6,416 nucleotides of DNA from NCBI GenBank assembly GCA_024710825.1, contig JANJUA010000094.1, positions 1 to 6,416 on the forward strand, given 5' to 3'. Position numbers and translations under genes: made by a program. Positions 411 through 6,276 of the stretch are shown in pieces; positions within the stretch are counted from its first letter, which is position 1, and the number at the start of each line of letters is the position of its first letter. Source of the DNA: Solirubrobacteraceae bacterium. Lineage in GTDB: Bacteria; Actinomycetota; Thermoleophilia; Solirubrobacterales; Solirubrobacteraceae. The notes beneath the pieces were generated by a model. That model had not been told where the DNA came from, did not search any database, and saw only the letters and a program-made list of their open reading frames with translations.

Positions 411-1538
411 TTGGACGACCACGACGTCAACGAGCGAGCGCCGCTCTACAGGGTCCGGCGGGTCTTCCTGCCGACGAGTGCCACTGAGTCGTTCACGGTG
501 ATCGGGCCGGACCTGCGTCCGGTGGAGCTGATCGACGAGTACCTGGCGTGGTTGACCAACAACGAGCGCTCCCCGAACACGGTCGAGGCATACGCTCACG
601 ATCTGAGGGCGTTTTGGACGTTCCTCGACGAGCACGGTCTGTCCTGGGAGCAGGTCGGCGTCATGGAGCTCGCCGAGTTCGCTGCCTGGGCGCGGCGACC
701 GGCGAAGAACGTCGTCGTCCTCGCGGACGAGGCCGCGCGTCTGTCGCCTCGAACGGTCAATCGGATGCTGACCGGCGTTGTCGGGTTCTACGAGCTGCAG
801 GCCCGGCGCGGCAGCACGCTCGCGCAAGACCTGGTCGTCAAGACCCGCAGTGGGCGCGGCGGCTACAAGCCGTTCCTGCACAGCATCGCGCGCAGCCGAC
901 CGCGCGGTCGCGCCGTCCGGCTGCCGGAGACCAAGCAGCTACCCAAGACGCTCACGCTGGAGCAGGTCGCCGCGGTGATCGACGCTCAGGAGCACCTGCG
1001 AGATCGGTTTCTCTTCGCACTGCTGGCCAGCTCAGGAATGCGCGTCGGCCAGGCGCTTGGCTTGCGCCACGAGGACGTCATCGCGTGGGAACGACGCATC
1101 GCGATCAGGGCCCGCGCCGGTGCGCACCGGCGCGCGCGCAGCAAGCGAGGCGCCGAGGGCGACGTCCCGGTTGGCGGCGAGCTAATGCGCCTGTGGAGCG
1201 ACTACATGCACCAGGAGTACGGCGATCTCGACTGCGACTTCGTGTTCGTGAACCTCTGGGGAGGGAAGATCGGGCGGCCTCTGACCTACTCCAACGTCGA
1301 TCGGATCGTCGGCCGGACCGAGAAGAAGGTCGGGTTCGCGTTCACGCCGCACCAGTTCCGCCACACCTACGCGACGCTGGCCTATCGCGACGGCGTCCAA
1401 CTGGAGGTGATCGGGGCGCTGCTGACACATCGGTCGCCGACGTCGACGCTGGTCTACACCCATCCCACCGCCGAGGACCTGCGCAAGGCCCTCGCCGAAC
1501 GCGGCGTCCTGGACAAGGTCGCCGATCTGGTCGCATGA
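411..1538 (+). CDS. tnpA: Tyrosine recombinase, TnpA-like transposase A of Tn554 family
   Basis: Predicted DNA strand-exchange enzyme that cuts and rejoins DNA through a 3'-phosphotyrosine link. The 375-residue protein has a core-binding (SAM-like) domain at about 37-135 (with RSPNTVEAYAHDLRAF at 53-68) and a catalytic domain at about 180-360. The full catalytic set is visible: R211 (SSGMRVGQ), K245 as likely beta-hairpin lysine, H314-x-x-R317 (HQFRHTYAT), H340 and nucleophile Y349 (LVYTHP). Length fits the family. The start is TTG 411; there is no ATG or GTG between the upstream stop (363-365) and it. A later GTG at 498 is possible, but the TTG start keeps the N-terminal YRVRRV segment that I recall in relatives. 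There is no clear Shine-Dalgarno, so translation may be weak or near-leaderless. It overlaps the next gene by 4 bases. Confidence 0.9.
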   Translation: MDDHDVNERAPLYRVRRVFLPTSATESFTVIGPDLRPVELIDEYLAWLTNNERSPNTVEAYAHDLRAFWTFLDEHGLSWEQVGVMELAEFAAWARRPAKNVVVLADEAARLSPRTVNRMLTGVVGFYELQARRGSTLAQDLVVKTRSGRGGYKPFLHSIARSRPRGRAVRLPETKQLPKTLTLEQVAAVIDAQEHLRDRFLFALLASSGMRVGQALGLRHEDVIAWERRIAIRARAGAHRRARSKRGAEGDVPVGGELMRLWSDYMHQEYGDLDCDFVFVNLWGGKIGRPLTYSNVDRIVGRTEKKVGFAFTPHQFRHTYATLAYRDGVQLEVIGALLTHRSPTSTLVYTHPTAEDLRKALAERGVLDKVADLVA

Positions 1539-3064
1539 GCGCCGAAGCGCTGCGAGTCCTCGAGGGCGGCCGTGCGCCCCGCGGCTGGGAGGAGCTGTGG
1601 GCCAAAGACGTCTGGCGCCAGGACGAGTTGCCACACGGCGATCTGGCCTCGACCTATCGCGGCTCGGTCTATCTGCACTTCGAGCATCTGCGTCAGCCGT
1701 GGCTGAAGGAGGCGGCCAAGCGATGGGTCCGCGCCCGCCTGCTCGGCGACACAACGCCTCGCACGATGAGCGAGTATCTCTCGGACCTGCGTCATTTCAG
1801 CCAGTGGCTGGACGAGCACGCTCCACAGGTCACCAGTCCCGCGCTGCTCACGCGCGAGGTCCTCGAGAACTTCCTGCTCTGGTTGCGCGTCGATGCCGAT
1901 TGGAAGCCGGCCACCCGCCAGCGACGCGTGATCTCGCTGCGGAACTTGCTCGATGAGCAGTCCGAGGACGGGCTGGCCGGGCTACCGCGAGGCGCGACGA
2001 TCCACGGTGCTGAGGTCCCCCGCGTCGACTACCGCCTGCCCAAGGAGCTCGGCGACGACATCTTCGGCCAATGGGTCGACCCGCAGAACCTGGTCCTGCT
2101 CGAAAGCGAGCAGCACCGCACGATCGTCTTGCTGCTCGCCCACACGGGCTTTCGGGTCTCGAGCCTGATCACGCTCCCGCGCGACACGCTGCGAATCGGT
2201 CCCGACGGCCATCCCTACCTGCGCTACTGGAACATCAAGTCCAAGCGCGAGGCGATGCTGCCGGTCCCGCCGCAGCTCGCAGCCCAGCTTGAGCGCCACG
2301 AAGCGCATCTCTGTGAGCACTACCCGGATGGCACCGAGTGGCTGCTGCCTTCCCCGCCGCCCAGTCGGCGCGGCATGTCGCGTGGCGGAGAACACCACAT
2401 CACGCACAGCACCGTTCGCCGCGTCGTCAAGGGCTACGTCCGTCGCGCCGAGATCCGCACTCGTGACGGCCGGCTCGCTTTGGACATCCACCCACACCTG
2501 TTCCGCCACCACCTCGGAACGAGCATGGTCAACGACAACGTCCCGCTGCCGGTGATCCAGAAGATCCTCGACCACGGCTCGTTGGAGATGACCGGCCACT
2601 ACGCCCGCCTGCACGACGAGACGCTCAAGCGCGAAGTGCTGCGCTGGCATGAGCGCGTCAACCGCCGCGGCGAGCGCATCGCCCTGCCGATCGACGGGCC
2701 GCTCGAAGAAGCTACATGGATGAAGGAGCGGATCGCCCGAGCCAAGCAGGCGCTGCCCAACGGCTACTGCGGGCTCCCGCTCGTCCAGACATGCCCACAC
2801 CCCAACGCCTGCCTCAGCTGCGACAGCTTCCTGACGGACGGATCGTTCCGCGACATCCACGAGCAGCAGCGCGCTCAGACCCGCAATCTCCTCGGCCGCG
2901 CGCAGGACAACAACAACGTCCGCCTGATCGAGGTCCTCCAACGCGACGAGGCAAGCTTGACGCGCATCCTCGAAGCCCTCGATGCGATCGACGCCGACCA
3001 CAGCGACGACGCCGCTGTCGATCTGCGCGATCTCGCCACGCCTACGACGCAGGAGATCGCCTGA
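1535..3064 (+). CDS. tnpB: Tyrosine recombinase, TnpB-like transposase B of Tn554 family
   Basis: Second recombinase of the module, 509 residues, acting with TnpA in site-specific integration and excision. A core-binding domain spans about 55-145 and a catalytic domain about 190-365. Catalytic residues are R207 (HTGFRVSSL), K235 or K237 (NIKSKRE), H321-x-x-R324 (HLFRHH), H347 (LDHGS) and Y356 (TGHYAR). The C-terminal extension holds a cysteine cluster C412, C420, C426, C429 with H422 (CPHPNACLSCDSF), probably zinc-binding and characteristic of TnpB-type proteins. An acidic, helical tail follows. The frame is open upstream as far as 548, but that part is an Arg-rich shadow of tnpA. ATG 1535, overlapping the tnpA stop as ATGA, is the sensible start and implies translational coupling. 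Confidence 0.9.
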   Translation: MSAEALRVLEGGRAPRGWEELWAKDVWRQDELPHGDLASTYRGSVYLHFEHLRQPWLKEAAKRWVRARLLGDTTPRTMSEYLSDLRHFSQWLDEHAPQVTSPALLTREVLENFLLWLRVDADWKPATRQRRVISLRNLLDEQSEDGLAGLPRGATIHGAEVPRVDYRLPKELGDDIFGQWVDPQNLVLLESEQHRTIVLLLAHTGFRVSSLITLPRDTLRIGPDGHPYLRYWNIKSKREAMLPVPPQLAAQLERHEAHLCEHYPDGTEWLLPSPPPSRRGMSRGGEHHITHSTVRRVVKGYVRRAEIRTRDGRLALDIHPHLFRHHLGTSMVNDNVPLPVIQKILDHGSLEMTGHYARLHDETLKREVLRWHERVNRRGERIALPIDGPLEEATWMKERIARAKQALPNGYCGLPLVQTCPHPNACLSCDSFLTDGSFRDIHEQQRAQTRNLLGRAQDNNNVRLIEVLQRDEASLTRILEALDAIDADHSDDAAVDLRDLATPTTQEIA

Positions 3065-3465
3065 TGGCTGCCCAACCGGCCCGCACACCGCTCGAGGACG
3101 CCGCCGCACGGCGGACGCTCGAAGCCGAGAGGTGCGTCCGCAACGCGCTGCGCGAACTGGATCGAGAAGGCGAGACGATCAGCTTCGCCGCAGTCGCCCA
3201 GCGAGCCCACGTCAGCCGCGCCTTCCTCTACGGACACAACGACTTCCGCGCCGAGATCGAGGCGCTCCGAGCCACGCAAGGCGCCGCCCCGTCACGGCTG
3301 CCGGTCCGCCAGCGCGCCAGCGACGCCTCGCTACGCGCTCGCCTGCGCGCCGCCCTCGACGACAACCAGCGCCAACGCGAGGAGCTCGCCAGATTGCGCG
3401 AGGAGCTCGCGATCGCCCACGGCCGGGTTCGCGAACTGGAGCTCGACCGCCGGATCGCTCGATGA
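3064..3465 (+). CDS. tnpC: TnpC-like accessory protein (DUF6262-type), HTH plus coiled coil
   Basis: Small 133-residue protein in the place of TnpC, which in Tn554 influences the efficiency or orientation of transposition. An N-terminal TetR-like helix-turn-helix is visible at about 22-68 (ISFAAVAQRAHVSRAFLYGH), meaning it probably binds DNA. The C-terminal half from about 85 is a charged heptad-like helix rich in Leu, Glu and Arg, likely a coiled coil for dimerisation or contact with the recombinases. Length and architecture match the DUF6262 proteins that commonly follow such recombinase pairs. ATG 3064 overlaps the tnpB stop by one base (TGATG). The frame extends upstream to 2716 only as a shadow of tnpB. 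Confidence 0.82.
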   Translation: MAAQPARTPLEDAAARRTLEAERCVRNALRELDREGETISFAAVAQRAHVSRAFLYGHNDFRAEIEALRATQGAAPSRLPVRQRASDASLRARLRAALDDNQRQREELARLREELAIAHGRVRELELDRRIAR

Positions 3466-4673
3466 ACACCTGGCCCGCACCACCAGCAACCGCCGCGCTC
3501 TATGGCCCTGCCGGCGAGTTCGTCGAGCGCACCGCACCGCACACCGAAGCTGACCCGATGGCCCTGCTCGCACAGTTCCTGATCACATTCGGGGCCGCCG
3601 CCGGTCGCAACGTCCACTACGCCGTCGAAGCCACGCGCCACCACCTCAACGAGTTCTGCATCCTCGTCGGCCCTTCCGGCAAGGGCCGCAAGGGATCGTC
3701 CTGGGACCACGTCGAAGCGCTGTTCGCCGACGTCGACCACGGCTTCATCGACCAGTGCGTCTCCTCCGGGCTGTCATCAGGAGAAGGGCTCATCTGGGAA
3801 GTCCGCGACGACCAGGAAGGCGCCCAGCCGCGCCGCGACAAACGCCGGCTGGTCGTCGAATCCGAGTTCGCTCAGGTCCTCAAGGTTCTCGCCCGCGAAG
3901 GCAACACCCTCTCGCCCGTCGTCCGCAACGCATGGGACGGCAAGACCCTGCAGACGATCGCCAAGAACGCCCCGGTCCGGGCCCGCGACACACACATCTC
4001 AATCGTCGGCCACATCACCAAAGACGAACTGCTGCGCTTCGTCACCGGCACCGAACTCGCCAACGGCTTCTTCAATCGCTTCCTCGTCATCGCCGTCCAG
4101 CGCAGCCAAGAGCTGCCCTTCGGCGGGCGCCTGGCCGGCGACGACCTTGCCCACGTTCGCGACACCACCCTCACCGCGCTGCGCTTCGCCTCGCTGCCGC
4201 GGCAACTGACCTTCGACGGCCCGGCGCGCGAGCGCTGGATCGCCGTCTACGGCCCGCTGTCGCGCGGCACCGAAGGCCTCACCGGCGCAGCCACCCGCCG
4301 CGCCGAAGCACACGTCATCCGCCTGGCAGCGCTCTACGCCACCCTCGACTGCGCCGAACGCATCAGCCTCCCCCACCTCGACGCCGCGCTCGCCGTCTGG
4401 CACTACAGCGCCGCCTCAGCGAGCTGGATCTTCGGCGACAGCCTCGGCGACCCGACCGCCGACGAGATCTGGGCGCTCGCCAAAGACCGCCCCGGCGGCG
4501 TCACCCGCACCGAGGTTCGAGACCTGTTTAGCCGCAACAAGAAGGCCCGCGAGATCAACCGCGCTCTCACGGTCCTCGAGGAGGCCGGCCGCCTTCAGCG
4601 GACCACGATCAACGACGGGCGCGGCCGGCCCGCCGAAACCTGGCTGCCCGCCGCCGGCCGCCAGGCCGCTTGA
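3462..4673 (+). CDS. DUF3987-like putative ATPase with C-terminal winged helix, coupled to the transposase operon
   Basis: 403-residue protein resembling DUF3987/helicase-like proteins found on actinobacterial plasmids, phages and integrative elements, where they are thought to act in replication or DNA processing. A region resembling a P-loop but with unusual spacing lies at 68-81 (LVGPSGKGRKGSSW). A Walker B-like strand is at 130-135 (LVVESE), a sensor-like segment at 178-185 (HISIVGHI), and a possible arginine finger at R206 (GFFNRF). Residues about 345-395 look like a winged helix (TRTEVRDLF, then INRALTVLEEAGRL). The start ATG overlaps the tnpC stop (ATGA), so it is co-translated with the module. 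The longer open frame from 2982 is a shadow. The function in transposition is unknown; ATPase activity is inference. Confidence 0.75.
   Translation: MNTWPAPPATAALYGPAGEFVERTAPHTEADPMALLAQFLITFGAAAGRNVHYAVEATRHHLNEFCILVGPSGKGRKGSSWDHVEALFADVDHGFIDQCVSSGLSSGEGLIWEVRDDQEGAQPRRDKRRLVVESEFAQVLKVLAREGNTLSPVVRNAWDGKTLQTIAKNAPVRARDTHISIVGHITKDELLRFVTGTELANGFFNRFLVIAVQRSQELPFGGRLAGDDLAHVRDTTLTALRFASLPRQLTFDGPARERWIAVYGPLSRGTEGLTGAATRRAEAHVIRLAALYATLDCAERISLPHLDAALAVWHYSAASASWIFGDSLGDPTADEIWALAKDRPGGVTRTEVRDLFSRNKKAREINRALTVLEEAGRLQRTTINDGRGRPAETWLPAAGRQAA
3463..3494 (+). repeat. Left copy of a split direct repeat flanking the fourth transposon gene
   Basis: TGAACACC (3463-3470), containing the tnpC stop codon, and CACCAGCAACCGCC (3481-3494) recur at the end of the next gene. 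Here the two parts are separated by a short insert; in the right copy they are fused. The exact shared block is 14 bases. It may mark acquisition of the gene as a cassette, or be coincidence. Confidence 0.4.
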
Positions 4674-4926: not shown

Positions 4927-4929
4927 ATG
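4907..4929. promoter_or_regulatory. Paired palindromes at the regulator start: candidate ArsR/SmtB operator
   Basis: TGATATCA (4907-4914) and CATATG (4924-4929) are perfect palindromes in an AT-rich patch immediately at and before the regulator's start codon. ArsR/SmtB sensors usually repress their own operon by binding AT-rich dyads over the promoter or start region. The assignment rests on position and symmetry only. Confidence 0.3.
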
Positions 4930-5289
4930 AGCGCCGCGACCGAATCGATCACGCCCGCCCCAGAGCTGACGGCGAAGGTGTTTCGCGCGTTCGGCGATCC
5001 CACGCGGCTGGGGATCTTGCAGGCGCTGCATGGCGGCGAATTGTCAGTCGGCGAGCTCGTCGAGCGTCTGGCGATCGCTCAGCCGCAGGTGTCGAACCAT
5101 CTTGCGTGCCTTCGCTGGTGTGGCCTGGTCAGCTCGCGCCGCGAGCACCGACGGGTCTTCTACTCGGTCCCCGACGAACGCGTGGCGGCGGCGATCGCGC
5201 TCGTCGAGCAGCTCGGCGCCGACAACGCGCAGCACGTCGACGCCTGCGAACGGATCGACGGGCGCGCATCTTTCAAAGGAGGACGCTGA
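4927..5289 (+). CDS. ArsR/SmtB-family metal sensor, CmtR-like (Cd/Pb type)
   Basis: 120-residue winged-helix repressor. After a short N-terminal helix comes the family signature FRAFGDPTRLGILQAL (19-34). The recognition helix-turn-helix is at about 39-67 (SVGELVERLAIAQPQVSNHL) and the wing at about 68-80 (SSRREHRRVFYSV). Three cysteines stand out: C61 and C65 in CLRWCGLV, and C107 near the C-terminus. This matches the spacing of the Cd(II)/Pb(II) ligands of mycobacterial CmtR (C57, C61, C102). The ArsR-type ELCVCDL site is absent. I infer a soft-metal sensor that derepresses its operon. Start ATG 4927 is chosen because it gives normal family length; the frame runs upstream to 4777 without family features. 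GGAA at 4916-4919 is a weak ribosome site. It overlaps the next gene by one base (TGATG). Confidence 0.85.
   Translation: MSAATESITPAPELTAKVFRAFGDPTRLGILQALHGGELSVGELVERLAIAQPQVSNHLACLRWCGLVSSRREHRRVFYSVPDERVAAAIALVEQLGADNAQHVDACERIDGRASFKGGR
5275..5282 (+). promoter_or_regulatory. Strong ribosome binding site of the thioredoxin-fold gene
   Basis: AAAGGAGG ends 6 bases before ATG 5289 and lies inside the last codons of the sensor gene. It is the strongest Shine-Dalgarno associated with a gene in the window and fixes the start at 5289 rather than the upstream-extended shadow frame from 4914. Confidence 0.75.
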
Positions 5290-5597
5290 TGACCGTCGAG
5301 ATCCTCTACTTCGACGGCTGCCCGAGTTTCGAGCAGATCGTCCCGCGGGTCCGTGACCTCGCGCGCGACGCCGGCGCACAGGTCGTGCTGCGAGTGATCG
5401 AGACGCTCGAGGCCGCAGAGGCCGAGCAGTTCCTCGGCTCGCCGACGATCCGCGTCGACGGCCGCGACATCGACCCTACGGCGGCAAGCCGAACTGACTT
5501 CGGGCTGAAGTGCCGGCTCTACCGCGACGGCACGGAGCACAGCGCAGTCCCGCCCGAGGCATGGATCCGCGCTGCCCTCGAGGGCCGCGATGCCTGA
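5289..5597 (+). CDS. Small thioredoxin-fold protein
   Basis: 102-residue cytoplasmic protein of the small thioredoxin-like group often found beside metal or mercury genes in actinobacteria. It begins with a beta strand and a single-cysteine motif (EILYFDGCPSFEQ, C11), where classical thioredoxins have CxxC. Next is the typical GSPTIRVDGRDIDP segment (50-63), whose Pro corresponds to the cis-proline. A second cysteine, C75 (GLKCRLYRDGT), and a closing helix PPEAWIRAAL follow. The exact partner is unknown; a thiol or metal-transfer role beside a thiol-based sensor and a rhodanese is inference. From memory, some small proteins of this kind carry selenocysteine in place of the motif cysteine; here the codon is TGC. 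It overlaps the rhodanese start by 8 bases. Confidence 0.75.
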   Translation: MTVEILYFDGCPSFEQIVPRVRDLARDAGAQVVLRVIETLEAAEAEQFLGSPTIRVDGRDIDPTAASRTDFGLKCRLYRDGTEHSAVPPEAWIRAALEGRDA

Positions 5598-5793
5598 GCA
5601 AATCACGTTCCCCCGGCTGCGCGAGCTGCTCGACGCCGGCGCCCAGCTCGTCGACGTGCTGCCCGAACGCGAGTACCTCGAGGAGCATCTCCCCGGCGCC
5701 ATCAACATCCCGCTCAAGCAACTCGACGCACAGAACACCGCCAGCCTGGACCGCGCCCGGGCGGTGGTCGTCTACTGCTGGGACGGCCTCTGA
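5590..5793 (+). CDS. N-terminal half of rhodanese domain, as delimited by TGA
   Basis: 67 residues if TGA 5791-5793 terminates. It contains the rhodanese start (FPRLRELLDAGAQLVDV), the conserved HLPGAINIPL motif (33-42) and the active-site strand VVVYCWDGL with the catalytic cysteine C63. It then stops inside the active-site loop, lacking the following helix and the last strand, so it should not fold as a working rhodanese. ATG 5590 has GAGGG (5580-5584) 5 bases upstream and overlaps the previous gene by 8 bases, so it is the coupled third gene of the operon. Confidence 0.5.
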   Translation: MPEQITFPRLRELLDAGAQLVDVLPEREYLEEHLPGAINIPLKQLDAQNTASLDRARAVVVYCWDGL

Positions 5794-6276
5794 GACATGA
5801 GTCCACGAGCCGCGTGTCGGCTCGCCACGCTCGGGTTCACCGAGGTCTACGACTACATGCCCGGCAAGGTCGACTGGCTCGCCCGCGGCCTGCCGCGCGA
5901 AGGCGCAAACGCCAACGCGATGCGGGTGATCGACTTCGTCCGCGACGACGTGGCTGTCGCCACCCTCGGCGAGCGAGTCGGTGCGGTCGCCGACCGCGCG
6001 CGCCAGACGCCCAACAACTTCGCCTACGTCATCAGCGACGGCGGAGTGCTACTCGGCCGCCTGCGCCGACGAGCACTGGAGAGCGAAGCCGACGCGCTCG
6101 TCGACGATGTGATGGAGCCGGGCCCGTCAACCGTCCGCGCCGACACGGCGGCCGACGAACTGCACAAACGTCTCACTCGGCAAGAGCTCACGACCGCAGT
6201 CCTCACCGACCCCGACGGCCGGCTGCTCGGGACCGTTCACCGGAGCGACCTCCCCTCCACGCGCTCTGCGCGCTGA
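5590..6276 (+). CDS. Rhodanese-CBS protein read through an in-frame TGA: candidate selenoprotein
   Basis: Reading the TGA at 5791-5793 as an amino acid gives one 228-residue protein: a complete rhodanese domain (about 5-105) followed by two CBS motifs (about 117-222). The frames on both sides are identical, with no other stop or frameshift in 229 codons. The residue at the TGA (position 68) forms a C63-x4-[68] loop. Related rhodaneses have Cys there, as in YCWGPGCNGA-type loops (from memory), and selenocysteine replaces cysteine. A SECIS-like stem-loop follows directly. Alternatives are a recent TGC-to-TGA or TGT-to-TGA nonsense mutation, a sequencing error, or two separate polypeptides. Selenocysteine use would require selA, selB, selC and selD in the genome, none of which is in the window. 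Confidence 0.55.
5791..5824 (+). promoter_or_regulatory. SECIS-like stem-loop downstream of in-frame TGA
   Basis: CGAGCCG (5806-5812) pairs perfectly with CGGCTCG (5818-5824) around the 5-base loop CGTGT (5813-5817). The stem begins 12 bases and the loop 19 bases after the TGA. This fits the general bacterial SECIS layout: a hairpin just 3' of UGA inside the coding region, a small apical loop with G early in it, and GU available for SelB. A weak lower stem, GAG (5799-5801) with CTC (5830-5832), could extend it across an internal loop. GC-rich DNA forms hairpins easily, so this is supportive and not decisive. Confidence 0.45.
5797..6276 (+). CDS. C-terminal half of rhodanese plus paired CBS motifs
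   Basis: 159 residues if counted from ATG 5797, the second codon after the TGA. Residues 1-36 are clearly the rest of the rhodanese (SPRAACRLATLGFTEVYDY, then GKVDWLARGLP). CBS motif 1 spans about 48-98 (AYVISDGGVLLGRL), and CBS motif 2 about 103-153 (VMEPGPSTVRADTAADEL, then TAVLTDPDGRLLGTVHRSDL). CBS pairs usually bind adenosine nucleotides or similar ligands and regulate the attached domain. No Shine-Dalgarno serves ATG 5797. Re-initiation 3 bases after the TGA is possible, but the product would begin mid-domain, so I favour the continuous protein or a nonsense allele. Confidence 0.5.
   Translation: MSPRAACRLATLGFTEVYDYMPGKVDWLARGLPREGANANAMRVIDFVRDDVAVATLGERVGAVADRARQTPNNFAYVISDGGVLLGRLRRRALESEADALVDDVMEPGPSTVRADTAADELHKRLTRQELTTAVLTDPDGRLLGTVHRSDLPSTRSAR

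Follow-up and report, generated by a model that had tools for sequence, protein, structure and literature searches.

A gene at positions 5590-6276 of a contig from a soil bacterium of the Solirubrobacteraceae (JANJUA010000094.1, assembly GCA_024710825.1) very probably encodes one predicted selenoprotein of 228 residues, composed of a rhodanese domain and a CBS pair, in which the in-frame UGA at 5791-5793 is read as selenocysteine (Sec). The window, i.e. the whole stretch of DNA that was analysed, comprises 6,416 nucleotides of the forward strand. On comparative evidence the selenocysteine reading is well supported: UGA is most likely read in this way, since dozens of relatives share both this codon and the hairpin that follows it. 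The original prediction of a Sec codon, made from the letters of the window, is strengthened by further sequence evidence, namely the recurrent TGA, a SECIS-like hairpin, selD together with a partial tRNA-Sec gene, and a TGA-containing formate dehydrogenase gene in the same genome. The gene and its principal elements are:

5590..6276, + strand: rhodanese-CBS gene interrupted by an in-frame UGA; single frame of 228 codons and a stop; PF00581 and PF00571
5776..5778, + strand: TGC, catalytic-loop Cys63; Cys codon in 47 of 52 DNA copies
5791..5793, + strand: TGA, predicted selenocysteine codon 68 (C-x4-U); TGA in 48 of 52 DNA copies
5806..5824, + strand: SECIS-like hairpin; 7-bp stem of 5806-5812 with 5818-5824 and loop CGTGT at 5813-5817

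As originally described, the frame 5590-6276 (+) is intact except for just one internal TGA at 5791-5793, which is codon 68 of 228; the gene closes with a terminal TGA at 6274-6276 and contains no other stop. The active-site loop reads C63-W-D-G-L-TGA, so that the catalytic C63 (TGC, 5776-5778), invariant in alignment A1, lies five residues N-terminal of the TGA codon. In the read-through translation, Pfam places the rhodanese domain across the TGA in one frame, in agreement with the first description (PF00581, residues 9-98, 53.3 bits, cut-off 22.2), and recognizes a single CBS motif (PF00571, residues 171-221, 31.3 bits, cut-off 24). The second CBS motif is derived from structure only: an AlphaFold2 model generated from an alignment of 44 sequences (mean pLDDT 95.4) shows the rhodanese followed by a CBS pair, and CBS-pair chains (4gqw, 3k2v) match this model over 120-127 columns. 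The top Foldseek match is the BH2092 rhodanese (PDB 3nhv), with CBS-pair proteins and MgtE matching as well, and the modelled product is a predicted sulfurtransferase-type fold joined to a CBS pair. The solved BH2092 structure (PDB 3nhv/3o3w) also bears out the original statement that related rhodaneses carry C-x4-C in this loop, as its YCWGPACN aligns with C63 and position 68; unlike the window protein, BH2092 is a Cys form, and its chain of 126-144 residues matches the rhodanese part only. Many long antisense ORFs, and clusters of antisense matches, were dismissed as high-GC artefacts.

The residue at the TGA site was tabulated among the best 120 of 2185 protein database matches, of which 110 have Cys at position 68, 6 have Trp and 1 has Ser, the residue being absent from 3; position 63 is Cys in 117, the other three being truncated rows. 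Residue 68 is missing from the record of the window itself and from its two closest relatives, P0020 (82%) and P0075 (80%), whose calls start only at MSPRAA, directly after the TGA site. Codons were read from an alignment of DNA copies compiled from four sources: a contig scan of genomes (16 loci); 232 genomes of the order Solirubrobacterales, 25 of which contain the family (E <= 1e-20); 399 genomes of the class, with matches in 28 (E <= 1e-30); and plasmids (6 matched records, of which the 4 covering >=80% of the query were read). Once duplicates were removed, 52 distinct copies from Actinomycetota and Chloroflexota remained. In 48 of them codon 68 reads TGA, in 2 TGT (including the G041 copy) and in 2 TGC, with TAA or TAG in none of the 52. 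The suggestion that TGA sits where Cys is expected, the signature of a Cys/Sec family, thus agrees with both data sets (110 of the best 120 protein matches with Cys; among the 52 DNA copies, 48 with TGA and 4 with a Cys codon), and far from all relatives carrying a sense codon, 47 further copies have TGA at the same site.

This recurrence bears directly on the view that the window, taken from a 444-contig draft genome, holds a pseudogene or an assembly error in which TGC or TGG was misread as TGA. The 47 other TGA copies, two of which lie on finished Pseudonocardia plasmids (NZ_CP053565.1, NZ_AP018921.1), exclude a sequencing error or a lone mutation, and together with the window frame being free of any other stop they leave this explanation a negligible chance. 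The frame can be aligned on either side of the TGA in the window's order, in a further family of the class, in Rubrobacter, Pseudonocardia and Actinomycetospora, and in Chloroflexota; L039 alone presents a frame shift further downstream of the TGA. Codon 63 is TGC or TGT in 47 of the 52 DNA copies and TGA in 5, and these both-TGA copies (U-x4-U) all belong to Chloroflexota (records titled Chloroflexi or Dehalococcoidia; L032, L035 with two, L037 and L038). In them, two candidate Sec codons stand 15 bases apart, with a single hairpin behind the second.

Gene callers treat the TGA as a real stop, which would yield a 67-residue rhodanese fragment and a separate CBS protein restarting at ATG 5797. 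Accordingly, RefSeq annotates two CDS on both Pseudonocardia plasmids, one rhodanese-like and one CBS, split at the TGA, and the window does contain an ATG two codons past it. This restart ATG is, however, unconserved, 21 of 34 TGA copies having Met as residue 70, against 12 with Leu and 1 with Ile; moreover, the split would fall inside the rhodanese fold, a Cys codon replaces TGA in four copies, and the hairpin and its codon bias (see below) would be left unaccounted for, so that a genuine stop has only a slim chance of being correct. Split annotation of TGA genes is found at L178 (5992-6660) and L177 (438-1103), and the same fault may hold for other members.

Decoding of the UGA as another residue, either Trp or, via a suppressor tRNA, Cys, was considered in view of the Trp found at position 68 in 6 of the best 120 protein records (P0003, P0012, P0026, P0039, P0076 and P0105). 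These all stem from JGI contigs of 901-1470 bases; in the tree, four of them group with a TGA copy and the other two with Cys rows, and they probably represent gene calls made under code 4, in which TGA means Trp. Since the rhodanese-CBS gene itself ends in TGA, UGA also acts as a stop here, and the internal TGA is accompanied by a SECIS-like hairpin and selenocysteine genes. These points argue for selenocysteine and give decoding as Trp or Cys a very slim chance.

Counting from the TGA, the hairpin starts at base 16 and consists of the arms CGAGCCG and CGGCTCG enclosing the loop CGTGT; all seven of its seven pairs form in the window, and the distance from UGA to loop is 19 nt. The bacterial SECIS model, as quoted in the available part of a 2026 review (PMC13188914), requires a G within the first two positions of a 3-9-nt loop, a stem of 4-16 bp and a distance of 16-37 nt from the UGA, and the window hairpin (7 bp, loop CGUGU, 19 nt) agrees with these loop, stem and distance rules. 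Of the 48 TGA copies, 44 conform to the model in loop, stem and distance, with the G at the start of the loop; four Chloroflexota copies have the loop CTTGG, with no G in these positions under the 7-bp model. Complete stems (7/7 pairs) form in 41 of the 48 TGA copies and 6/7 pairs form in the remaining 7, compared with a mean of 1.26 and a maximum of 7 full stems of 48 over 2000 trials in which synonymous codons were redrawn from the same genes outside the hairpin region, a test that leans towards the stem, whose definition comes from this very set of related sequences. In addition, CGA encodes Arg73 in 35 of 48 TGA copies, whereas it makes up 84 of the 823 Arg codons in the remainder of these genes. 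Folding energy provides a weaker signal (mean z of -1.72 over the 48 copies, 26 of which are among the lowest 15 of 300), and the window itself reaches only rank 34 of 300. Rfam at gathering scores returned zero matches in the window. The conserved hairpin just behind the UGA would likely direct Sec insertion at codon 68. The four Cys copies form 5, 6, 3 and 7 of the stem pairs; the copy that keeps the full stem, L180 (Nonomuraea; 3001-3597), perhaps retains a remnant SECIS.

Selenocysteine insertion also depends on dedicated genes, and a search of the source genome for selA, selB, selC and selD, as originally proposed, recovered selD and the 5' part of a tRNA-Sec gene but neither selA nor selB. 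The window's assembly (G000) comprises 3.04 Mb in 444 contigs and is 90.2% complete. It contains selD at C383:192-1118 (381.8 bits), and the end of this contig (L174, 1-54) breaks in the middle of a tRNA-Sec gene adjoining selD, after the TCA anticodon; the broken end matches sister tRNA-Sec genes at 87% over 55 bases and 90% over 69. In the sister genome G079, selD, tRNA-Sec, selA and selB are consecutive. SelA and SelB over their cut-offs and a whole tRNA-Sec were not found in the 444-contig draft; the missing SelA and SelB carry less weight against Sec given selD and a tRNA-Sec gene truncated where its contig stops. The assembly's top tRNA-Sec match (46.1 bits, below 47) was identified as tRNA-Ser by ARAGORN, and its top SelB match, with 193.6 bits against a cut-off of 242.25, is probably EF-Tu, as it lies near another elongation-factor match. 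Among 41 sel loci scanned, most with short flanks only, ARAGORN detected tRNA-Sec in 8. The window's genome further encodes an FdnG-like formate dehydrogenase with an in-frame TGA (IENQARI*HSSTVPGL; L232, G000:C254:2346-3092), which we take to be the known Sec site of this enzyme; one FdnG-like copy in G079 has Cys at this site, and further copies in G077 and G079 also show one TGA.

Across the order, 16 of the 22 genomes that carry a TGA copy have SelA, as do 1 of the 3 carrying a Cys copy and 60 of the 207 that lack the family (16/22 versus 60/207, Fisher p = 7.8e-5, kinship uncorrected); SelA is also found in 11 of the 13 TGA genomes of the order at >=85% completeness. Further class genomes, searched for SelA only, gave 7 of 10, and among ten named genomes outside the order and class sets a strong SelA match was obtained in 9, the tenth, G245, having a SelB match of 337.6 bits. 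The isolates Actinomycetospora cinnamomea DSM 45771 and A. lemnae DW7H6 each combine a TGA copy with SelA and SelB. Altogether, 33 of 42 TGA-copy genomes carry SelA or SelB (ten class genomes being searched for SelA only), and neither was found in G000, G078, G124, G161, G205, G224, G413, G415 and G464 (three class genomes: SelA only). In G078, which belongs to the window's genus, is 96% complete and has the TGA copy L134, selA, selB and selD were not found. These nine genomes, G078 above all, count against the selenocysteine reading. The gene could be a relic, a former selenoprotein gene whose machinery was lost in the window's lineage and which is now read only as a fragment, as selA and selB were found neither in the window's assembly nor in G078. 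Against this, the window's genome has selD, the contig-cut 5' part of tRNA-Sec and a TGA formate dehydrogenase gene, the hairpin is intact (7/7 pairs) and the downstream frame is open, and a relic is given a small chance relative to a functional Sec codon.

The gene was originally placed in a metal-sensor operon, and the upstream genes conform to this description, as an ArsR/SmtB-type regulator gene and a DF gene precede the rhodanese-CBS gene with overlapping ends:

4927..5289, + strand: ArsR/SmtB-family metalloregulator gene; PF01022, 57.4 bits; NF033788, 92.3 bits (cut-off 55)
5289..5597, + strand: DF-family (seleno)protein gene, with no TGA here; NF049942, 104.5 bits (cut-off 70)

The DF gene lies directly upstream of the rhodanese gene and overlaps its start by 8 bases, giving the order ArsR, DF, rhodanese-CBS. 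A 'hypothetical protein DF' was reported by deep-Sep (PMC12013277) and tied to NF049942 by PMC13188914, according to the parts of both papers that were available. Within 3.5 kb of the 52 copies, some of which have short flanks, the same strand carries DF in 16, ArsR in 12, MerB in 7, MerR in 3 and MerA in 1, and the opposite strand DF in 3, ArsR in 3, MerA in 2 and MerR in 1; 30 of the 52 have no MerA, MerB, MerR, ArsR or DF gene within this distance on either strand. As a control, 60 selA or selB loci of ~4 kb each, an imperfect match to the copy neighbourhoods, contained no DF, MerB, MerA or MerR match and 1 ArsR. MerB (alkylmercury lyase, PF03243) is located directly upstream in L124, L131 and L134 (the G078 copy), MerR-MerB-DF upstream in L027, L031 and the Pseudonocardia autotrophica plasmid, and MerA (TIGR02053, 554 bits) directly upstream in L120. 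In the window, only ArsR and DF were detected, with no merA or merB beside the rhodanese-CBS gene within 3.5 kb (625 bases covered downstream). Because Mer genes adjoin only a minority of the 52 copies, mercury represents a recurrent and not a universal context, and the neighbourhood as a whole may point to thiophilic metals. The 45 of 52 copies with no MerB close by, and the 30 with none of the five neighbour genes, count against the proposed function.

Upstream of the operon, positions 411-4673 of the window hold four consecutive genes with overlapping ends, encoding two tyrosine recombinases (PF00589), a DUF6262 protein and a DUF3987 protein. This order resembles that of a Tn554-type element, and the metal operon of the window may therefore be mobile.

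Several known proteins resemble parts of this family. Five rhodanese-like selenoprotein forms are listed in the available part of PMC13188914, and other rhodanese selenoproteins in the accessible portions of PMC9312934, PMC2398784 and PMC5029168. TsoB (NF045694) is a rhodanese/DsbD fusion-like selenoprotein which, like the window protein, has paired positions of this spacing, there as UxxxxU (PMC13188914, in the part available); the NF045694 model matches window residues 19-112 with 32.2 bits against a cut-off of 805. In contrast to TsoB, the window family has a CBS pair after the rhodanese and, in 47 of 52 copies, a Cys as the first of the paired residues, and the model of the Tso regulator TsoR matches the window's ArsR only weakly (50.8 bits, cut-off 115). 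Forms 1-4 (UxxS, UxxG, CxU of NF041203, and UxxG) share Sec in a rhodanese-like domain, but their motif spacing, as given in the same portion of PMC13188914, differs from the C-x4-U of the window; the rhodanese LYCAU model NF041203 scores 21.2 bits with the window protein (cut-off 115). Other selenoproteins tied to mercury or organometal chemistry in this source are SaoL, which is MerB-like, and HgcA, HgcB and a putative mercuric transport protein, which are not rhodaneses; all are families other than that of the window (PMC13188914, available part). NCBIfam (release 20.0, June 2026) has no model over its cut-off for the window rhodanese-CBS protein; among its selenoprotein models, TsoB and NF041203 come nearest. 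Neither a C-x4-U form nor a CBS fusion was found in the available part of PMC13188914, the terms 'CBS' and 'CxxxxU' being absent from its main text, and the literature search returned no paper combining selenoprotein, CBS domain and rhodanese. A rhodanese-CBS selenoprotein family was likewise not found in this search; a mention in Haft and Tolstoy 2025 or Haft and Gwadz 2023 is possible.

The distribution of both forms was placed on a tree of 96 rows, comprising 51 of the 52 DNA copies and 45 database proteins (L039, with 106 aligned residues, was left out). The Sec form occupies deep branches (Chloroflexota, Rubrobacter and the further family of the class) and also occurs among Cys rows, with at least 10 changes between Sec and Cys. 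As the tree is rooted at midpoint, supported by SH-aLRT only and starred at 24 of 93 inner branches, the direction of these changes is a matter of interpretation. One possible, rather doubtful reading is that Sec is ancestral in an overlooked Actinomycetota/Chloroflexota family of C-x4-U (in Chloroflexota U-x4-U) rhodaneses joined to a nucleotide-sensing CBS pair, that these would use selenolate to capture or pass on mercury or organomercury, that Sec was repeatedly lost to Cys, and that the family stayed hidden until now because annotation splits the gene in two.

From the genomic context, C-x4-U may constitute a redox or soft-metal site. The existence of the double-Sec form suggests that both loop positions can take selenium, and it appears a better fit to a redox or metal-binding pair than to a structural Cys. 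In the mechanism proposed here, which as a whole is tentative and more likely to need revision than to stand complete, Cys63 and Sec68 would lie opposite one another in the active-site loop of the rhodanese. There, Cys63 would bind sulfane sulfur or a soft-metal thiol adduct, and Sec68 would either resolve this adduct as a selenenyl-sulfide or keep the metal as a second ligand, after which a cellular thiol system would reset the pair. Thiophilic-metal stress would act through the ArsR-type gene to turn the operon on; the CBS pair may tune activity via adenine nucleotide binding.

If correct, the selenocysteine reading adds a rhodanese-CBS branch to the known selenoproteins. It also exposes an annotation fault, in that the best 120 protein matches are mostly of the Cys form, yet 48 of 52 DNA copies carry TGA. 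According to the available part of PMC13188914, aerobic bacteria rarely retain selenoproteins, and the presence of this family across soil Actinomycetota would therefore be worth explaining. The neighbouring MerB (7 of 52), MerA (1 of 52) and ArsR (12 of 52) genes make it testable whether selenocysteine is used by bacteria in handling mercury, and the double-Sec Chloroflexota form, together with the at least 10 Sec/Cys changes, offers a natural experiment on keeping or dropping selenium.
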